Positions 52,720 to 61,650 of a stretch of DNA of 64,000 nt are shown here, piece after piece. The first letter of the stretch is position 1; each line of letters starts with the position of its first letter. Made by a program: the position numbers and the translations under genes. The notes beneath the pieces were generated by a model. The model had not been told where the DNA came from, made no database searches, and saw only the letters and a list, made by a program, of their open reading frames with translations. This DNA is from Kiloniellaceae bacterium (lineage in GTDB: Bacteria > Pseudomonadota > Alphaproteobacteria > Kiloniellales > J153): the NCBI GenBank assembly GCA_021776095.1, contig JAJFGO010000076.1, forward strand, positions 1-64,000. Reading direction: 5' to 3'.

Positions 52720-54087
52720 TCAGGTTTCGATCTCGAAGCGGCGCAGTAGATTGTAAAGCTTCGGCCGGCTGATCTGCAAAATCTTCGCAGCGTTGGAGAT
52801 GTTGCCGCCCGATACGGCCATGGCATTTTCGATCGTGGCGCGCTCGGCCCGATCCCGCGCCTCTTGGAGCGTCTCTCGCTTCGGTTCCGGGCTCGGCGTC
52901 TCGAAGCCGAGATCGGCGGCCGTGACTTTACGGCCTTTCGCGGTCACGACCGCGCGCTTCAGGCAGTTTTGCAGTTCTCGGACATTGCCCGGCCAATCGT
53001 AGGCCGCCAGAGCCGATAGGGCGTCGGCGCCAAATCCGCGCACCGGCCGGCGCAGGTCGCGCGCCAATTTTCCGAGCAAGTCATTGGCAATGACAACCGC
53101 GTCGTCTCCGCGCTCGCGCAGCGGCGGCAACTCAATTGAAAACTCGCTCAAGCGGTAATACAGATCCTCGCGAAACAATCCGGCCTCGATGGCTTGGTTC
53201 AGAACTTGATTGGTCGCCGAAAGGACGCGCACATCAACGTCTATGGTGGTGCGGCCGCCAACGCGCTCGATCACCCGCTCTTGAAGAAAGCGCAATAGCT
53301 TCGCCTGCAGCGGCAGGCTGAGGTCGGCAATCTCGTCGAGAAAAAGCGTGCCCCCGCTGGCCTGCTCGATCTTCCCGATTGTCGTCTTGATGGCACCGGT
53401 GAAGGCCCCTTTTTCGTGGCCGAAGAGTTCGCTCTCCAAAAGATGGTCCGGGATCGCCGCGCAGTTGATCGCGACGAAGGGTTTATTGGCACGCCGGCTG
53501 TGCTGATGCACGCCACGCGCGATCAGTTCCTTGCCGGTACCGCTTTCGCCCGTGATCAGCACGCCGATATCGCTGTCCGCCACGTCCCGGACCCGCTTCA
53601 GGGTCTGCTGCAGTTTGGGAAAGGTGGTCAGGAAGCCGGGAAATTCATAGCCCGCACTGTAGCGCGCGATTTTCCGGTGTTCCTCCTCCAGCGTCCAAAG
53701 CTCATAGGCACGGGTAACGATCAAGCCCAGAATGTCGGCGTCCACCGGCTTATGATAGAAGTCGTAAGCACCGCCGGCCACGGCTTCGACCGCGTAGGCG
53801 CGATGGGCCTGTCCGGTCATCATGATGACCTTGCATTCGGGCTCTAGTTCTAAAATGCCGGTCAATGTCGCCAGACCCTCGCTCGGCCCGTCGGCATCGG
53901 GCGGCAATCCGAGATCGAGCACGACGACCGGCGGTTGTTCCCGCGCCACAATTTCTAAAGCGCTCTGACGGTTTTCGGCGGTTAAGACCTGATAGGATTC
54001 GAAGGCCCAGCGAAGTTGCCGCCGAAGGCCCGGGTCGTCCTCGACAATTAAAATCTTGCGTTCCGCCTTGCTTGGCTTACCCGACAT
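52720..54087 (-). CDS. prsR: PEP-CTERM system response regulator, sigma-54 activator
   Basis: A 455-residue NtrC-type regulator. The receiver domain (1-125) has phospho-acceptor Asp58 in VVVLDLGLPP and the acidic pair in VEDD; the AAA+ domain has Walker A GESGTGKE (180-187), the sigma-54-contact loop GAFTGA (227-232) and Walker B GGTLFLDE; the C-terminal Fis-type helix-turn-helix is AAKILQISRPKLYNLLRRFE. It matches the TIGR02915 regulator of exosortase A systems. Phosphorylated by PrsK, it would drive sigma-54 promoters of PEP-CTERM genes such as that at 60349-60364. It is encoded 16 bp after prsK in the same operon. Confidence 0.94.
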   Translation of the reverse strand: MSGKPSKAERKILIVEDDPGLRRQLRWAFESYQVLTAENRQSALEIVAREQPPVVVLDLGLPPDADGPSEGLATLTGILELEPECKVIMMTGQAHRAYAVEAVAGGAYDFYHKPVDADILGLIVTRAYELWTLEEEHRKIARYSAGYEFPGFLTTFPKLQQTLKRVRDVADSDIGVLITGESGTGKELIARGVHQHSRRANKPFVAINCAAIPDHLLESELFGHEKGAFTGAIKTTIGKIEQASGGTLFLDEIADLSLPLQAKLLRFLQERVIERVGGRTTIDVDVRVLSATNQVLNQAIEAGLFREDLYYRLSEFSIELPPLRERGDDAVVIANDLLGKLARDLRRPVRGFGADALSALAAYDWPGNVRELQNCLKRAVVTAKGRKVTAADLGFETPSPEPKRETLQEARDRAERATIENAMAVSGGNISNAAKILQISRPKLYNLLRRFEIET

Positions 54088-54103: not shown

Positions 54104-56236
54104 CTAACTAGCGCCGCCGGCGACCGGCAGCGTCACGCGCATTGTGGTCCCCTCGCCGGGCTCGCTGATTGCTACCAGGTCTCCGCCAAATTCCCTGGCA
54201 TATTCCCGGCACTGATATACACCGATTCCCATGCCGCCTTTCTTGGTCGATTGAAAGGGTTTGAAGAGCTCTCGCCGGACGAAATCCGGCTCCATACCCG
54301 GTCCATCGTCGATCACATCGACGACCGCGAAGCTGCCCTCGCCATGCAGATTTATCCTAACGGTACCGTGACTGCCCGCAGCGTCCGCAGCATTCTGAAT
54401 GAGATGCGAGAAGATCGCCTCCAGGCGATCGGAGTTCCCCACCGCGTACAAGTTCGCCGTGCCGCTTTCGACGACCAACTCCGGATCGCGTTCTGGCTGC
54501 GCGGCGACGACTTTTTGAATGATCGGCCGTAGTGCCAGCTCGGCCTTGACCGGCTCCTTGGGTTGGAAGGCGCTGATGCGCGCCATCAGGCGGTTCATCA
54601 TAGCTGCCGCGTCCTTGAGAGACGAGACCGCGTCGTCGCGGAATTCCTGCCGGTGGCCGTGCTTTTCGAAATTCGAGCCCAAGACGGATAGCTGACTGAC
54701 CAGGTTTTTCACATCGTGCACGACGAAGGCGAAGCGCCGGTTGAAGATCTCAAACTCGCGCGCCGCCTCCAAGGCTTCCTGAGCCTTGTGTTCGGCCAAA
54801 TAGCTCGCCGCTTGCCGGCCGACGACGCCGAGCAGGTCGTAATCTTCCCAGCCCAAGATCCGCGCCGCGCGCGGCTGCTCCAGGATGACCATGCCGACCA
54901 GACCTCGATGCCACAGCGGGACCACCAGCCAAGTCCGGCGCAGATTCAGCAGCTCTTCTGGCACCGCCTCCGCGCCCTGCACCTCGCCGCCGTTACGCAA
55001 TTGCTGCAGGTTGATCACGGTCTGCGATTCCTTCAAGGTCTTGCCGAACTCGAACGCGCGTTCGGGGGTCAGCTCGGGAATCGTGAAATTCCAGGCTGCG
55101 GCGTGATGCGCGCGCGCCTCTTCAATTAGAATCATGGCCCCGCCCGGGCTTTCGACAATGTCCGCGATGGCCTTGACGCAGCGTTCTTCAAGCGGCGCAT
55201 CGTGAACACTGGCCAGCGTAGCCATGAATCGCAGCCATTCTTCACGCCAATCGTATTTGTGCTCGAAGAAATGCCGGCTGACCCAAACGCGCACATGTGC
55301 CCAGTACGCCCCCGAGAACAAAATAACCGCCAGGACAGCGATCGCGCCGACCAGAAACACGATCTGGATCACGCTGCCAGGTTCGGCGCCGATCTCGCGA
55401 ATCCAGAATCCCACCGCGGCGGCCAACGCGAGATAGATCCCGGTCGCGATCAGCGTCGTTGATCCCATCATCACTTTGCGTGACAGGGAGATCCCGGTTT
55501 TCCAGATTTCGGCCCGCGCCGCGGCGACTGCGAAGAGCGGCGCGCACAACGCCTGCACCGCACCCCGGGCTTCTTGCAGGACCGGGTCGACAGCGCCAAA
55601 TAGGGCCGCATCGGCATAAAGGAACAGGTCGTAGGCGAAGAAGATTCCGGTCGAAAGACAAAGCAGCTTGATCGTCCATCGCTGGCTGGGCGGGGTGTTT
55701 CGGAACAGCATCTCGGTCGCCATAAGGCCGGCGACCGCCGCGATCAGACCCACCAGAGGATTCAGATTGACCCCGCCGGACAGGAAAATCAGGCCGCTCC
55801 AGGATGCCAAGGCGGCCAATCCAATGCTGGAAACGCCGACGGCAATTACGCCAACCGTCGATGCCGGTAGAGCGCGCTGGCCAATTGGCGTGCCGCGCAG
55901 CAGCAGATACAAAAGAAACGAGAACCAGGTCAGGAAACGAACGATTTCGAGAGACGGGATCAGGGCGCGCCGAATCGGCAAGTCGGCATAGTAGGCGGCC
56001 GAGCAAGCGGTCCAGACCGCAGTCGCGCACAAGGCCATCAGGACGAAACCGGCCTCTGGGTGGCGCGCCCTGGCCACCACCACCCCAAACAAAATGGCAA
56101 AGGCGGCCGCCCCGATCGCAAAACTGATATTGCCGAGCGACGGCGCCGACACGGGCCCCTCCGCCAACCCGACGGATGGCCCTATTAACGCTCCCGCAGC
56201 GATGGCCCAACTGTTAGAATCGTGTATCACTTGCAA
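54104..56236 (-). CDS. prsK: PEP-CTERM system histidine kinase
   Basis: A 710-residue membrane sensor kinase. The N-terminal ~320 residues contain about nine hydrophobic helices, followed by a GAF-like domain (~345-490) and a kinase core with the phospho-accepting His507 in FVVHDVKNLVSQL, N-box FSHLIQNAADAA and G-boxes DDGPGME and KKGGMGIGV. It matches the TIGR02916 kinase of exosortase A loci. The signal may be sensed in the membrane or by the GAF domain. It is the first gene of prsKR and is divergent from prsT, with 390 bp between them. Confidence 0.93.
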   Translation of the reverse strand: MQVIHDSNSWAIAAGALIGPSVGLAEGPVSAPSLGNISFAIGAAAFAILFGVVVARARHPEAGFVLMALCATAVWTACSAAYYADLPIRRALIPSLEIVRFLTWFSFLLYLLLRGTPIGQRALPASTVGVIAVGVSSIGLAALASWSGLIFLSGGVNLNPLVGLIAAVAGLMATEMLFRNTPPSQRWTIKLLCLSTGIFFAYDLFLYADAALFGAVDPVLQEARGAVQALCAPLFAVAAARAEIWKTGISLSRKVMMGSTTLIATGIYLALAAAVGFWIREIGAEPGSVIQIVFLVGAIAVLAVILFSGAYWAHVRVWVSRHFFEHKYDWREEWLRFMATLASVHDAPLEERCVKAIADIVESPGGAMILIEEARAHHAAAWNFTIPELTPERAFEFGKTLKESQTVINLQQLRNGGEVQGAEAVPEELLNLRRTWLVVPLWHRGLVGMVILEQPRAARILGWEDYDLLGVVGRQAASYLAEHKAQEALEAAREFEIFNRRFAFVVHDVKNLVSQLSVLGSNFEKHGHRQEFRDDAVSSLKDAAAMMNRLMARISAFQPKEPVKAELALRPIIQKVVAAQPERDPELVVESGTANLYAVGNSDRLEAIFSHLIQNAADAAGSHGTVRINLHGEGSFAVVDVIDDGPGMEPDFVRRELFKPFQSTKKGGMGIGVYQCREYAREFGGDLVAISEPGEGTTMRVTLPVAGGAS

Positions 56237-56626
56237 CCTATGGCCGGAACCTTAGCGTTCTCTTCAGTGCCAACGCCATAACCTATTCAGGAAAACATGC
56301 CCAAGGCCGTCTGCAAACTTCACGCATCAAGCTTCGGCAAACTTTAAACCATCAAGCGCTTGCTTGAGACAAGATACGGTGAATATATGTGCATTCAAAC
56401 CAAGAAACAATATTTGACGACAATCTATTACACCCTTTAAATCCCCATTCAATTTATTAAATTTAAATAAATATATTGTGCAGTGGTGCATATTTGATTG
56501 AGGAGTTAGAGATCTTATAATATCGCCGACCGAGCCTTGGGCAATCTTCGCGCCAGGTTCGGAATGTAGGAATCTCCGAGGCGCGGGCGGTCACGTGCAC
56601 GGATTTTGGTGAGGATAAACGACGAG
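56237..56626. other. AT-rich divergent promoter region between prsK and prsT
   Basis: About 390 bp with no gene. The block 56360-56520 is very AT-rich compared with the surroundings. It contains an ATTACAC word (56432-56438), which also occurs in reverse in the two repeats upstream of the PEP-CTERM gene, but no full TGT-N11-ACA site. No sigma-54 -24/-12 pair passes inspection, so these genes probably use another promoter type. Confidence 0.4.
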
Positions 56627-59422
56627 ATGTTGTACCGAAGGACGCGACCTCTATGGCTCGCCCTGTTTGCCGCTGCGGCTATTCTAGCGGGCTGTGAAGA
56701 GTCCGGCAGCGTTAGCTCAGAGGAATACCTAAATCGCGCCCGTGGCCATCTGGAAGCCGGAGAGGTCCGCGCCAGCGTCATCGAATTAAAGAACGCCCTG
56801 CAGCAAGACAGCGCGAACGCGGAAGCGCGTCTCCTGCTCGGTCGGGTCTATGCCGAATCCGGCAACGGCGTCAGCGCCCTGAAGGAACTGACCCGCGCCG
56901 AGGAGCTAGGCATCGACCCGGGCCGAACCGCCATGGCCATGGGCCGCGCGCTGTTGCAGACCGGGGCGCCGGCCAAAGCGTTGACCATGTTCGATCTGGC
57001 CGAATCCGGACCCGAGGCCGAGCCGACGGTCCTACAAATTCTTCGCGCCGGGGCGCATGCCGCGCTCGGCGACCTGACGGCGGCCGAAGCCGCGTTCCGG
57101 ACCGCGCTCGAAACCGAACAAGAAAGCGTCGCCGCCCTGGCCGGGCTGAGCCGGATCTTGGTCGCGCGACAACGTCTGGACGAAGCCGAGCCCTTTGCCG
57201 CGAAGGCCTTGTCGATCAATGCCAACGACCTCGCCGCGCAAGAAGCCAATGGCGAGTTGCGTCTGGCCCAAGGCCGCTTCGGCGAAGCGGAGGGCCATTT
57301 TCAGAAGATTGCGGACGCGCATCCCAATCTCTTGGCCCCGCTGGTGCGCCTGGCCTATGCCCAGATTGCGGCCGGCAACGTCACCCCGGCGATCGACAAT
57401 CTGGACCGCGCCCTCGAATTGGACCCGGGAAGTATCGAGGCGAACTACTTTCGGGGTCTGGCAGCTTACCAGGCCCAGGACTATCTAACCGCCAAAACCC
57501 GCGGTAACGCCGTGTTGTCGCAACAGGCGGCCAACCGCCCGGCAATGCTGCTGACCGGGGCCGCCGCCTTTGCTCTGAACCAAAATGAACAGGCGCGTGC
57601 CCTGCTGGTCCCCTACCTGACTCAAGTACCGGCCGATGACCGGGCACGCCGCCTTCTTGGCGCGACCCTAATGCGCCTGGACGAATCGAAGCAGGCCTTG
57701 GAAGTCCTGCAACCCTTGGCGGACAAGTCGGTAGACGACGCGGAACTCTTGGCCATGGTCGGCACGGCGGCGGTGCGCAGCGGCGACGCCGTGGTAGCGC
57801 GCAAATACCTGGAGCGCGTCGCGGCACTGCGCCCCGATAGTGGCCAGGCCATGGCGCAGCTTGGCGCCATTTCCCTGCAGGCCGGCGACCCGCAGCAGGC
57901 GATCAAAGAACTCGAGCGGGCCCTGTCGCAGGATCCCAATTTGGACCGCGCCCTGGCGGGGGTTGCCCTGGCCCATCTGCAGGCGCGCGACTTCGATCAA
58001 GCGCTGGAAGCGGCCGTAAAATTCCGGGAAGCGGATCCGGAACGCGCCGCGGGTGCGACTCTGGTCGGTGTGGTTCAGGTTGCCAAAGGTGACGTGGATG
58101 CCGCGCGAATCGCCTTCACGGACGCCATGAAGCTCGATCCGGGTGCGGCCGACGCCGGGGTAAATCTGGCCATACTGGAGGCCCGTGCCGGCGACCTGGA
58201 TCGCGCTCGCGAAATAGCCCATGAGGTTCTGACCAAACACCCCGCGAACTCTAACATGCTCGGGCTGCTGACCAATGTTGAGGAGCGCACAGGCCGCCTG
58301 GACGAGGCCTTGCCCTGGCTGGAAAAGGCCATAGACGCGGATCCCAATGCCCTGGATGCCCGTATTCTCTTGGGCCGGCTTCATTTGGTCCGCGAGCGCG
58401 CCGACGAGGCATTAGCGGTAGCCCGCGATTACCTCGCGTCGAATCCGGGCAATCCGCAACTCCGCGAGTTGGTTGGGCGTGCACAACTCGCCTCCGGGCT
58501 GAACGCCGATGCGGTGCTCACCTTGCGGCCGCTGGCCGAGGCAATGCCGGACTCGGCGCCGGTGCGCATGCTCCTGGCCAGCGCGTTTCGAGCGACCGGC
58601 GACACGACCCGGTATCAGAGCGAACTTGAGCGGGTCTTGAAGATCGACCCCGCGCACTTTGGCGCCAAGATCGGCGTGGCCAGCGTGCTGGCCCAGAACC
58701 GTCGGTTCGACCAGGCGCAAGAGATCCTCACCCAGCTCAAGGCCACCACCCCCGAAGCGCCGGAGATCTCCGATCTCGAAGGCGGGATCGCCATGGCGCG
58801 CGGCCGCCCGGCGGAGGCGGTCCAGGCCTACGGCAAAGCCCTCGCGGCCCGCCCAACCAGCGCCATCGTTATGCGCTTGGCCATGGCCCAACAGCAGGCC
58901 GGGGACTCCAAGGGAGGCCTGCAAAGCCTGACCAAATGGCTTGAGAGCAACCCGGACGACGATCGGGTCCGTGGGCTGCTGGGGATTCAGTATGTCGTCC
59001 TCAACCGGTTGGAAGATGCCCGCACCGCCTTCGCGGCCTTGGTCGCGGCCGATCCCAACGACGCGGTGGCGCTGAACAACCTAGCCACGGTCGAGTCCCG
59101 CCTGGGCAATCTGGACCAAGCTCTGGAGCGCGCCGAGCGGGCCCACGAGTTGACCCCCGATGATCCGGCGGTCAAGGACACCCTAGGTACGATTCTGCTG
59201 GAAACGGGCGACGCGCGACGGGCTCTGGCCCTGCTCCGGGCCGCCGCCACTCAAATCGCAAACAACGCGGAAATCGGCTTTCACTATGCTCAGGCCCTGG
59301 CCGCCAATGGCGAAAAGGCGCAGGCCCGGGAGGTGCTGGGCAAGGCCCTCGAGTCGGGCCAGGCCTTTCACGGGTTGGACCGAGCCAGGGACCTCATGCA
59401 GGAATTGGATCGCGGGCAATAA
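56627..59422 (+). CDS. prsT: PEP-CTERM system TPR-repeat lipoprotein
   Basis: A 931-residue lipoprotein. The signal peptide (LWLALFAAAAILAGC) ends in lipobox ILAGC, so the protein is anchored at a membrane facing the periplasm. The rest is a superhelix of more than twenty tetratricopeptide repeats, seen as recurring A..LD..NP/DP-type spacing (for example EKAIDADPNALDARILLGRL). It matches the TIGR02917 family PrsT, the marker of exosortase A systems, which probably scaffolds export or sorting of PEP-CTERM proteins and polysaccharide. The ATG at 56627 is preferred over GTG 56609 or TTG 56606 because it directly opens the signal peptide. Confidence 0.92.
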   Translation: MLYRRTRPLWLALFAAAAILAGCEESGSVSSEEYLNRARGHLEAGEVRASVIELKNALQQDSANAEARLLLGRVYAESGNGVSALKELTRAEELGIDPGRTAMAMGRALLQTGAPAKALTMFDLAESGPEAEPTVLQILRAGAHAALGDLTAAEAAFRTALETEQESVAALAGLSRILVARQRLDEAEPFAAKALSINANDLAAQEANGELRLAQGRFGEAEGHFQKIADAHPNLLAPLVRLAYAQIAAGNVTPAIDNLDRALELDPGSIEANYFRGLAAYQAQDYLTAKTRGNAVLSQQAANRPAMLLTGAAAFALNQNEQARALLVPYLTQVPADDRARRLLGATLMRLDESKQALEVLQPLADKSVDDAELLAMVGTAAVRSGDAVVARKYLERVAALRPDSGQAMAQLGAISLQAGDPQQAIKELERALSQDPNLDRALAGVALAHLQARDFDQALEAAVKFREADPERAAGATLVGVVQVAKGDVDAARIAFTDAMKLDPGAADAGVNLAILEARAGDLDRAREIAHEVLTKHPANSNMLGLLTNVEERTGRLDEALPWLEKAIDADPNALDARILLGRLHLVRERADEALAVARDYLASNPGNPQLRELVGRAQLASGLNADAVLTLRPLAEAMPDSAPVRMLLASAFRATGDTTRYQSELERVLKIDPAHFGAKIGVASVLAQNRRFDQAQEILTQLKATTPEAPEISDLEGGIAMARGRPAEAVQAYGKALAARPTSAIVMRLAMAQQQAGDSKGGLQSLTKWLESNPDDDRVRGLLGIQYVVLNRLEDARTAFAALVAADPNDAVALNNLATVESRLGNLDQALERAERAHELTPDDPAVKDTLGTILLETGDARRALALLRAAATQIANNAEIGFHYAQALAANGEKAQAREVLGKALESGQAFHGLDRARDLMQELDRGQ

Positions 59423-59537: not shown

Positions 59538-60254
59538 TCAGGTGCTCTCCTGCATCGCCGACCGGCGACGAGACAAGAAACCGAGTCCGAGCAAGCCGAC
59601 ACCGAACAAGGCCAGCGTACCTGGCTCGGGGATCTGGAATTCAGCATTGCCGGTTGTCGGCGATCCAGCCAGTGTGTGTGTGATGGTCCACCGCAGGGTC
59701 ACCGAATAAGACGGATCTGTCGGCGCAAGGCCAGAGACACCGAAAAAAGCACCCGGTGACGAAACCGGCCCCAAATCCGCGACTTTAGTCCCGCCCCCAA
59801 ACAGGTTGTCCGCCAAATCGACGAAAATTTCCAGACTGGAGGTCCCGCCGGCGCCGACCACGGGGCCCCAATGGGTATTGAAATTCTGCACGCCGCTGTT
59901 GGAAAAGCCGGTCTGACTCAACTCAACGACGAGCGTCCCCGCCCCGGTACTGGTGGCCGTGACGCTGAGATCCATATGGGGATAAGGTGCGGCGAGGACC
60001 GGATTCGATAATCCGGTGTCGATATTTATATTGAATATCCCGACCGGCCCGAAGTGGAGGATGGCGCCAGGAGTCGCCGCAGCAAAGTCGCCTAGACCAC
60101 CATCAGCCACCGTGACGATGGTCGCGCCTTGGGTCAACCGCATGGCAAAGGCCGCCTCGGCGTCGTTGGCCGAGCCAACGGACAGCATGCCTACTGTGGC
60201 AATAACCGCCGCCGAAAGCACTTTGTTTGTCTTGAGAAACCGCATCACTTTCAT
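59538..60254 (-). CDS. PEP-CTERM domain protein, probable exosortase A substrate
   Basis: A 238-residue secreted protein. A signal peptide (residues 1-34, ending ANDAEAAF) is followed by a beta-rich, Gly/Thr/Ser-rich body without cysteine. The C-terminus is a textbook PEP-CTERM tail: IPEPGTLALFGVGLLGLGFL followed by SRRR (about residues 210-230). XrtA should cleave after PEP and attach the protein to an unknown carrier. It is the only such substrate in the window. GGGGAGA precedes the ATG. A sigma-54 promoter lies ~95 bp upstream. Confidence 0.93.
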   Translation of the reverse strand: MKVMRFLKTNKVLSAAVIATVGMLSVGSANDAEAAFAMRLTQGATIVTVADGGLGDFAAATPGAILHFGPVGIFNINIDTGLSNPVLAAPYPHMDLSVTATSTGAGTLVVELSQTGFSNSGVQNFNTHWGPVVGAGGTSSLEIFVDLADNLFGGGTKVADLGPVSSPGAFFGVSGLAPTDPSYSVTLRWTITHTLAGSPTTGNAEFQIPEPGTLALFGVGLLGLGFLSRRRSAMQEST

Positions 60255-60348: not shown

Positions 60349-60364
60349 TGCAACCCTCGTGCCA
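60349..60364 (-). promoter_or_regulatory. Sigma-54 promoter of the PEP-CTERM gene
   Basis: Read leftward, TGGCACGAGGGTTGCA contains the -24 GG and -12 GC with the strict spacing and all consensus bases (TGGCACG-N4-TTGCA). Transcription would start near 60338 and give a leader of ~85 bases. PrsR is a sigma-54 activator encoded 6 kb away, which fits the known PrsK-PrsR-RpoN control of PEP-CTERM genes. Confidence 0.9.
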
Positions 60365-60423
60365 TCTGAATAACTCATTATTTATCAATACCTTGACATA
60401 TGTCCATGGTTAACTTGCGGTGG

Positions 60424-60546
60424 TAGTGTAATGAAAATGGACAGCACTTCTTAGAGTCTGATCAAAAGATATTTTTAATATCAACATCTTATATAAAAAT
60501 CACGGCATGACAGGCCGTTCCGAAGTGTAATGAAACCTGACAGCAT
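60424..60546 (-). promoter_or_regulatory. Two upstream activator sites, TGT-N11-ACA (probable PrsR sites)
   Basis: AGTGTAATGAAAATGGACAG starts at 60425 and AGTGTAATGAAACCTGACAG starts at 60524; both share TGT-N11-ACA and lie ~65-80 and ~165-180 bp upstream of the -24 box. A GACATATGTC palindrome is at about 60393-60402. Paired enhancer-like sites at this distance are what a sigma-54 activator needs. The assignment to PrsR is inferred. Confidence 0.65.
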
Positions 60547-60585: not shown

Positions 60586-61650
60586 TTACGAGGCCTGCGC
60601 CCCGTGCCGCCCCGCTTGGCCGCTGTAACGATTGCTAACACCGCTCTTCGCGGTGTCATGAAGCGCCTCAAAGATACCCAAAGGGGTATCCATCTGGCCG
60701 CCGATCCGGTTGCGGAAATAATCGAGATAGCGCGCCATAGTTGCCAGAAAACCAGCCAAATCGGCCCGATCGCGCACATAGGGGGTGCAGCCGGGCCGCA
60801 GTGTTGGGCTGTGGTAGGTCAGAACGAATATCCGGCGCCCTTGGGCCAGCAGGCTATCCGTCAAGCGGCACAGGGCGGCCGCGTCCACACCCTCCGGGGT
60901 CAGGCGAATGCGCTCCAACAAGCCCAGGCGGGCGGCGAAACCAGGCCCGTGCAGGGCCATGCCCAGGGGCGAGGCCAGACCGGGATAGACCGCCGGGCCG
61001 GCCCCGCGCAGCAATCCGGCGAAACCGGCGCTCTGGGGAATCTCCAACAGCCGCCGCTCGGTGCCGAACCAATAGGGCCGGGCCCCGAAGCCATGGTAGC
61101 AAGGCCCGCCATCGGCGCTGAAATCGGTGTGCGGCACGACACTGGTATCGACCTCGTAGCCCAGATCTTCCAGGATCCGCCCGGTCGCCGGGCCGGCGCC
61201 CCAGCGCCCGGCGCGGAACACCCGCGGGCGGACCCCCAGATTGGCCTCGATGGTCTCGGTCAGGCGCGTCAGCTTGGTCCGCTCCAACGCTTCGGGCAAA
61301 TTCCCGGCGTAGGAGTTGTAAGGCGTGACCTCCTCGTCGTGGGGCGGGGAGACCCAGGGGTGCAGATGGGCGCCAATTTCGCACACCCCGTCGCGCAAAA
61401 AGCCGCTCAAAATCTCGATCCCCGCGTCGCTGGTCGCGATGGGATAATCAACAACGTAACAGGGCACCAGACCGTGCTTGGCGAAGACGTCCTGCGCCGC
61501 CCCTTGGGCTCGGATCGCCTGGATCGAGGTGTTCTCCCGGGCCAGGGGTTGACCCCAGTCGAATTCCTCCTCGGTGTCGACCACGACCATCAGCCGAGGG
61601 GCCATATCCGGGGACACCTGGGCGAATTCAATTCGGTTTCGATCCAGCAT
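60586..61650 (-). CDS. Polysaccharide deacetylase-like protein, WalW type
   Basis: A 354-residue protein of the NodB/glycoside hydrolase-deacetylase fold. The first Asp region is LMVVVDTEEEFDWGQPL, the metal-binding histidines are in CEIGAHLHPWVSPP, and the Arg of motif 3 is in RVFRAGRWGAG. A late FVLTYHSPTLRPG carries the last conserved His. It differs from the XrtA deacetylase at 24156-25079 and resembles the WalW group seen in exopolysaccharide loci. It has no signal peptide and probably acts in the cytoplasm. It is upstream of the PEP-CTERM gene in the same direction, separated by the sigma-54 control region. The first ATG is used; ATG at MAPRL is an alternative. Confidence 0.82.
   Translation of the reverse strand: MLDRNRIEFAQVSPDMAPRLMVVVDTEEEFDWGQPLARENTSIQAIRAQGAAQDVFAKHGLVPCYVVDYPIATSDAGIEILSGFLRDGVCEIGAHLHPWVSPPHDEEVTPYNSYAGNLPEALERTKLTRLTETIEANLGVRPRVFRAGRWGAGPATGRILEDLGYEVDTSVVPHTDFSADGGPCYHGFGARPYWFGTERRLLEIPQSAGFAGLLRGAGPAVYPGLASPLGMALHGPGFAARLGLLERIRLTPEGVDAAALCRLTDSLLAQGRRIFVLTYHSPTLRPGCTPYVRDRADLAGFLATMARYLDYFRNRIGGQMDTPLGIFEALHDTAKSGVSNRYSGQAGRHGAQAS

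Follow-up and report, generated by a model that had tools for sequence, protein, structure and literature searches.

How is the PEP-CTERM gene that lies beside prsR, prsK and prsT in this stretch of Kiloniellaceae DNA (the window, 64,000 nucleotides) controlled, and which proteins would act at the repeats upstream of it? The original prediction placed a consensus sigma-54 promoter and paired TGT-N11-ACA repeats before the gene and offered the repeats as candidate PrsR recognition sites. The core of this idea, a PrsR box and a sigma-54 promoter before a PEP-CTERM gene, is already published, and the boxes are not a new candidate site (Haft 2006, PMC1569441). That work described, before proteobacterial PEP-CTERM genes, a motif 1 of 17 nt that ends in TTTACA and occurs in repeated copies at some genes (as before R. 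rubrum Rru_A3095). A spacer of 62.8 ± 10.6 nt separates it from a sigma-54 motif 2, and from there 71 ± 38.5 nt remain to the start codon; PrsR was predicted as the activator at motif 1 by phylogenetic profiling (PMC1569441). Our analysis favors, with a probability of about 0.82, a PrsR-controlled, sigma-54-dependent promoter with IHF-assisted looping, where PrsR and IHF are the proteins predicted to bind.

The -24/-12 element is as perfect as originally described (Table 1). Compared with the general -24/-12 consensus it has 0 mismatches, and no other site in the 64 kb comes within one mismatch of TGGCACGNNNNTTGCW. It has the -24(GG)/-12(GC) form of motif 2 of Haft 2006 and is followed by a leader of 94 nt to the start codon. 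The non-coding region upstream of the gene is long, with 331 nt separating it from the next ORF. This upstream ORF (354 aa, 60586-61650, minus strand) has no Pfam or NCBIfam match and has a conserved counterpart in L020, a syntenic locus. In the window, but not in L020, box 3 overlaps the 3′ end of this ORF.

Both predicted repeats are real, and TGT-N11-ACA describes them correctly, but a third copy, box 3, had been overlooked. All three are 17-nt boxes of the motif 1 type ending TTACA, with the form TGTC-N8-TTACA and with A, A and G rather than T at position 12. They stand 99 bp (boxes 1 and 2) and 98 bp (boxes 2 and 3) apart. TGT-N9-TTACA occurs three times in the window against 0.29 expected, each time at this promoter. 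The recognition sequence first proposed, GTGTAATGAAA-N4-GACAGCA, was over-specified, and we rejected this long consensus: only TGTC...TTACA (reverse complement TGTAA...GACA) is conserved across PrsR genomes, while the inner and outer bases are not. TTTACA is preferred at the box end in these genomes.

Table 1 Features of the promoter region and the prs locus in the window.
Feature	Position	Strand	Evidence or remark
prsR, PEP-CTERM-box response regulator	52720..54087	-	TIGR02915, 623 bits, over cut-off 502.6; Pfam domains
prsK, cognate histidine kinase	54104..56236	-	TIGR02916, 586 bits, over cut-off 300
prsT, TPR protein of the PrsK/PrsR system	56606..59422	+	TIGR02917, 668 bits, over cut-off 312
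Regulated gene, 238-aa PEP-CTERM protein	59538..60254	-	PF07589, E=1.8e-7; TIGR02595 over cut-off
Sigma-54 (-24/-12) promoter, TGGCACGAGGGTTGCA	60349..60364	-	Only TGGCACGNNNNTTGCW match in the window; GAGGGTTGCATATTAA stretch identical in syntenic L020
IHF-consensus core, TATCAATACCTTG	60383..60395	+	9/9 to WATCAANNNNTTR; in the loop between box 1 and promoter, 18 bp from promoter
Box 1, motif-1 (predicted PrsR) site, TGTCCATTTTCATTACA	60427..60443	-	62 bp upstream of promoter
Second perfect IHF-consensus core, TATCAACATCTTA	60479..60491	+	Between boxes 1 and 2
Box 2, motif-1 site, TGTCAGGTTTCATTACA	60526..60542	-	Begins 161 bp upstream of TGGC
Box 3, motif-1 site, TGTTAGCAATCGTTACA	60624..60640	-	Weaker; within 3′ end of upstream ORF; L020 counterpart TGTCACGAATCGTTACA

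The arrangement shares with the site of Haft 2006 the 17-nt box ending TTACA, a sigma-54 promoter about 62 bp downstream, a PEP-CTERM gene and the presence of PrsK, PrsR and PrsT in the genome, here in the same locus and all above curated NCBIfam cut-offs. The distances agree as well (spacer of 62 vs 62.8 ± 10.6 nt; leader of 94 vs 71 ± 38.5 nt). Unlike that site, the window has three boxes at steps of 98-99 bp, with A or G, not T, at position 12. RpoN dependence has been measured for pepA, a PEP-CTERM gene of Aquincola tertiaricarbonis RN12 (PMC9850573). The accessible part of that source resembles the window in placing the gene beside prsT, maps a -24/-12 promoter and mentions an upstream enhancer sequence; unlike the window, it does not describe multiple boxes or an IHF site, and the measured RpoN dependence belongs to Aquincola.

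PrsR carries a receiver domain, a sigma-54 AAA+ domain with GAFTGA and a Fis HTH, and, as claimed, no other clear sigma-54 activator is encoded in the window. This is weak evidence on its own, because the host genome holds seven clear sigma-54 activator genes; given these seven, rpoN is presumably present too. The HTH of PrsR from the window and from L020 has AAKILQISRPKLYNLL, and other compared PrsR proteins have mostly AAKLLG(I/V)SRPTLYDLL. Position 12 is A or G in several boxes of the window lineage vs T or C elsewhere, and a co-variation of the PrsR HTH with this position is possible.

A firmer link to PrsR comes from the genome scans, which rest on pattern searches. Among the nine PEP-CTERM genes of the host genome, the box-spacer-promoter pattern was found only at the gene studied here and at one on contig C50; the reversed control pattern gave 0 matches. 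The C50 promoter likewise carries three boxes, set 86 and 98 bp apart. The pattern is missing from 7/9 of these genes, and PrsR is thus not a general regulator of them. Across 398 genomes from the phylum, a loose form of the pattern was present in 21/45 PrsR-positive and 15/353 PrsR-negative genomes (Fisher p=1.8e-13); several matches in the latter 15 apparently reflect chance or incomplete assembly. The PrsR-negative genomes were scanned with the loose pattern only. With two host PEP-CTERM genes and this co-occurrence, the original reading of the region as a sigma-54 promoter with PrsR boxes is supported.

The stricter pattern (TGTC-N8-TTACA) was found in 52/73 PrsR-positive genomes, with 157 matches at spacers of 35-96 bp compared with 5 for the reversed pattern. 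Removal of duplicates left 153 promoters, of which 93 have a PEP-CTERM-like ORF directly downstream as judged by a simple regular expression that misses some. The genomes are related by descent and thus non-independent; counts made per genome agree.

Several other matches in the host genome were set aside. Those with two mismatches on contigs C17, C20 and C120 were judged to be chance, being isolated sites that lack both a sigma-54 element and a PEP-CTERM gene, and a composite match on C54 (TGGCCAGGACCTTGC, spacer 42) is probably chance, with no motif-1 score of at least 12 bits. The two-mismatch search also turned up a third PrsR-box array of the host (G000), on contig C5 at 70340-70545 of the minus strand (L243, L003). 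Its boxes, TGTCAGGTTTCGTTACA and TGTCAGGATTCTTAACA, lie 111 bp apart with an IHF-like TAACCAATTGAAA between them, and an imperfect, promoter-like sigma-54 element, TGGTCCGAAAATTGC, follows at a 63-bp spacer. No convincing ORF and no PEP-CTERM gene was found behind this element, and the array may be an orphan promoter, belong to a small RNA or mark a lost gene. Elsewhere, in eight genomes of one related family, f6 (L180-L184, L186, L190, L191), a PrsR box with an unusually short spacer of 43-44 bp directly precedes a conserved membrane protein of ~75-90 aa that is not a PEP-CTERM protein (RLFVIKTRFEA..IIYALALGA...YPG.GG..LF...AVFLAGAKI). The two examples searched had no Pfam or NCBIfam family match.

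The distance between box and promoter is far from arbitrary. Spacers of the 153 promoters cluster at ~43, 52, 62, 74 and 84 bp (ranges 40-44, 49-55, 59-66 with a mode of 62, 72-75 and 81-87), almost none fall at 45-48, 56-58, 67-71 or 76-80 bp, and the best-fitting period is ~10.5-11 bp. The clusters are whole DNA turns apart. The 63 spacers outside the modal cluster keep the phase (vector length 0.64 vs a null mean of 0.16), and 0 of 20000 jittered sets were as strong. Taking one promoter per genome leaves the outcome unchanged. This phasing across the family, like the elements, their spacing and their co-occurrence with PrsR, is a direct observation on the sequences. The standard deviation of 10.6 reported in Haft 2006 is itself about one DNA turn. 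Tolerance of whole-turn length changes has been predicted and shown for Vibrio qrr sigma-54 enhancers (PMC4740811) and is thus already known in principle; for PrsR promoters, we found no report of spacer phasing in the openly searchable full-text literature.

A candidate site for a DNA-bending protein lies in the spacer. The picture first drawn of this region was right about the promoter and the boxes and overlooked an IHF-like site between enhancer and promoter, which, by the general IHF consensus, has a perfect core. When promoters with 60-66-bp spacers are aligned on the promoter, their column composition reveals a conserved block, ~18-31 bp upstream of TGGC, which corresponds to the IHF core in reverse complement; YAA-N4-TTGAW emerges exactly from the position-wise composition, with no assumption about IHF. 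Perfect 9/9 cores are present in 30/153 spacers vs 2 downstream and 5 upstream flanks of equal length. The flanks are less AT-rich than the spacers, so Markov-resampled spacers are the fairer control, and against these 9/9 cores are still ~25 times commoner. It counts against the IHF reading that IHF consensus sites are short and AT-rich. A core of at least 8/9 lies 16-20 bp from the promoter, with the position and orientation seen in the window, in 58/153 promoters (null mean 1.2; 32 genomes), and one lies anywhere in the spacer in only ~58%. In a minority of the promoters the core points the other way, and it then lies mostly 3-8 bp away. The host genome encodes both IHF subunits (TIGR00987 and TIGR00988 over cut-off).

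The order of activator site, IHF site in the loop and -24/-12 promoter is shared with the IHF-assisted sigma-54 enhancer promoters (PMC4740811, PMC7962754), as is the ability to accommodate length changes of whole turns, which has been shown for Vibrio qrr enhancers. Unlike in that class, the activator here is predicted to be PrsR, and the box-plus-IHF unit is repeated two or three times in some lineages. Neither the IHF-like cores nor the helical phasing of our analysis appears in the text of Haft 2006 (PMC1569441), and no paper linking PEP-CTERM promoters with IHF was found in the openly searchable literature. Our search of the full-text literature outside subscription journals found neither direct binding by PrsR nor a need for IHF reported.

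Tandem boxes at such distances are rare, being found in only 5/73 PrsR genomes: the window's own, a second from the same family, one more from the order and a further two from the class. The steps are 86-89, 98-101 and 111 bp, and we rejected the idea that the step is always 98 bp, since other arrays stand at 86-89, 101 and 111 bp. As with box 1, an IHF-like core follows most upstream boxes of the arrays, and it starts 41-43 or 48-52 bp past the box start; some boxes, box 3 of the window included, have no following core at 8/9 or better. In one genome (G406), four separate PrsR-box pairs occur (contigs C5, C9, C42 and C96), and in every one of them the centre-to-centre distance is exactly 111 bp.

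Gene order and promoter at the syntenic locus L020 match those of the window, and prsR, prsK, prsT and the PEP-CTERM gene are contiguous in both. In L020, box 1 stands at a 63-bp spacer, box 2 is degraded (TGGTCGG...) and box 3 is shifted by 21 bp, or two turns. Promoter and boxes are kept while the PEP-CTERM protein is only 35% identical to that of the window, and the control region is thus better preserved than the protein. L020 (JAJDAH010000134.1) was the one useful syntenic relative found by a scan of genome contigs with PrsT, and its PrsT is 68% identical to the window's. The record is titled as a Polyangiaceae bacterium MAG; a mislabelled organism or transfer of the locus may explain this.

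These observations also bear on who acts at the promoter. Six activators besides PrsR could in principle use it, and about half of the PrsR-positive genomes lack the loose pattern, so one may ask whether another of the seven binds the boxes and the proximity of PrsR is coincidental. We regard this as very improbable in view of the strong co-occurrence of pattern and PrsR, the contiguity of prsR, prsK, prsT and the gene in both the window and L020, and the same assignment to PrsR by phylogenetic profiling (Haft 2006, PMC1569441). The identity of the bending element leaves more room for doubt. An AT-rich curved tract or an UP-like polymerase contact, with phasing from intrinsic bending, would fit spacers that are 64% AT and of which ~42% lack a core of at least 8/9, and one class of sigma-54 enhancers has an AT-rich sequence and no IHF site (PMC4740811). 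The exact YAA-N4-TTGAW pattern, obtained without assuming IHF, the excess of 9/9 cores over resampled spacers and the genes for both IHF subunits make this alternative unlikely.

Whether boxes 2 and 3 do anything is a separate matter. They could be functionless relics of tandem duplication, with box 1 acting alone: PrsR promoters mostly carry just one box, box 3 is the weaker copy, and L020 has a degraded box 2. Recent duplication as the origin of the boxes was rejected, as the modules have no similarity outside boxes and IHF cores (21-32%). In addition, both motif-bearing host PEP-CTERM promoters have three boxes at similar steps, and L020 retains box 3 despite the two-turn length difference. 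On balance, we find the relic explanation doubtful.

We thus return to the PrsR-controlled, IHF-assisted promoter, for which we infer from sequence that PrsR and IHF bind, that PrsR is phosphorylated, that the DNA loops and what the extra boxes do. Sigma-54 polymerase would sit on the -24/-12 element as a closed complex. PrsK would phosphorylate PrsR, which would bind the TGTC-N8-TTACA boxes, chiefly the one centred ~97 bp upstream of the start, and the boxes at about -196 and -294 probably raise the local PrsR concentration or aid hexamer assembly. IHF would bend the DNA between box and promoter such that PrsR meets the polymerase on the correct helix face and, by hydrolysing ATP, opens the complex. 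The encoded PEP-CTERM protein would be a surface protein sorted with exopolysaccharide.

The analysis yields a trimmed consensus, TGTC-N8-TTACA, and a reference spacing, with which the PrsR regulon can be called in genomes, non-PEP-CTERM genes included. It predicts that 5-bp insertions would abolish and 10-11-bp insertions would keep activity, and that IHF would be required. The ~150 natural spacing variants offer material for the study of enhancer looping at sigma-54 promoters. PrsR promoters likely form an extensive natural class of sigma-54 enhancers that are organised by IHF and strictly phased to the helix; in the window's lineage and a few others of its class, two or three box-plus-IHF units would follow one another as an enhancer array.
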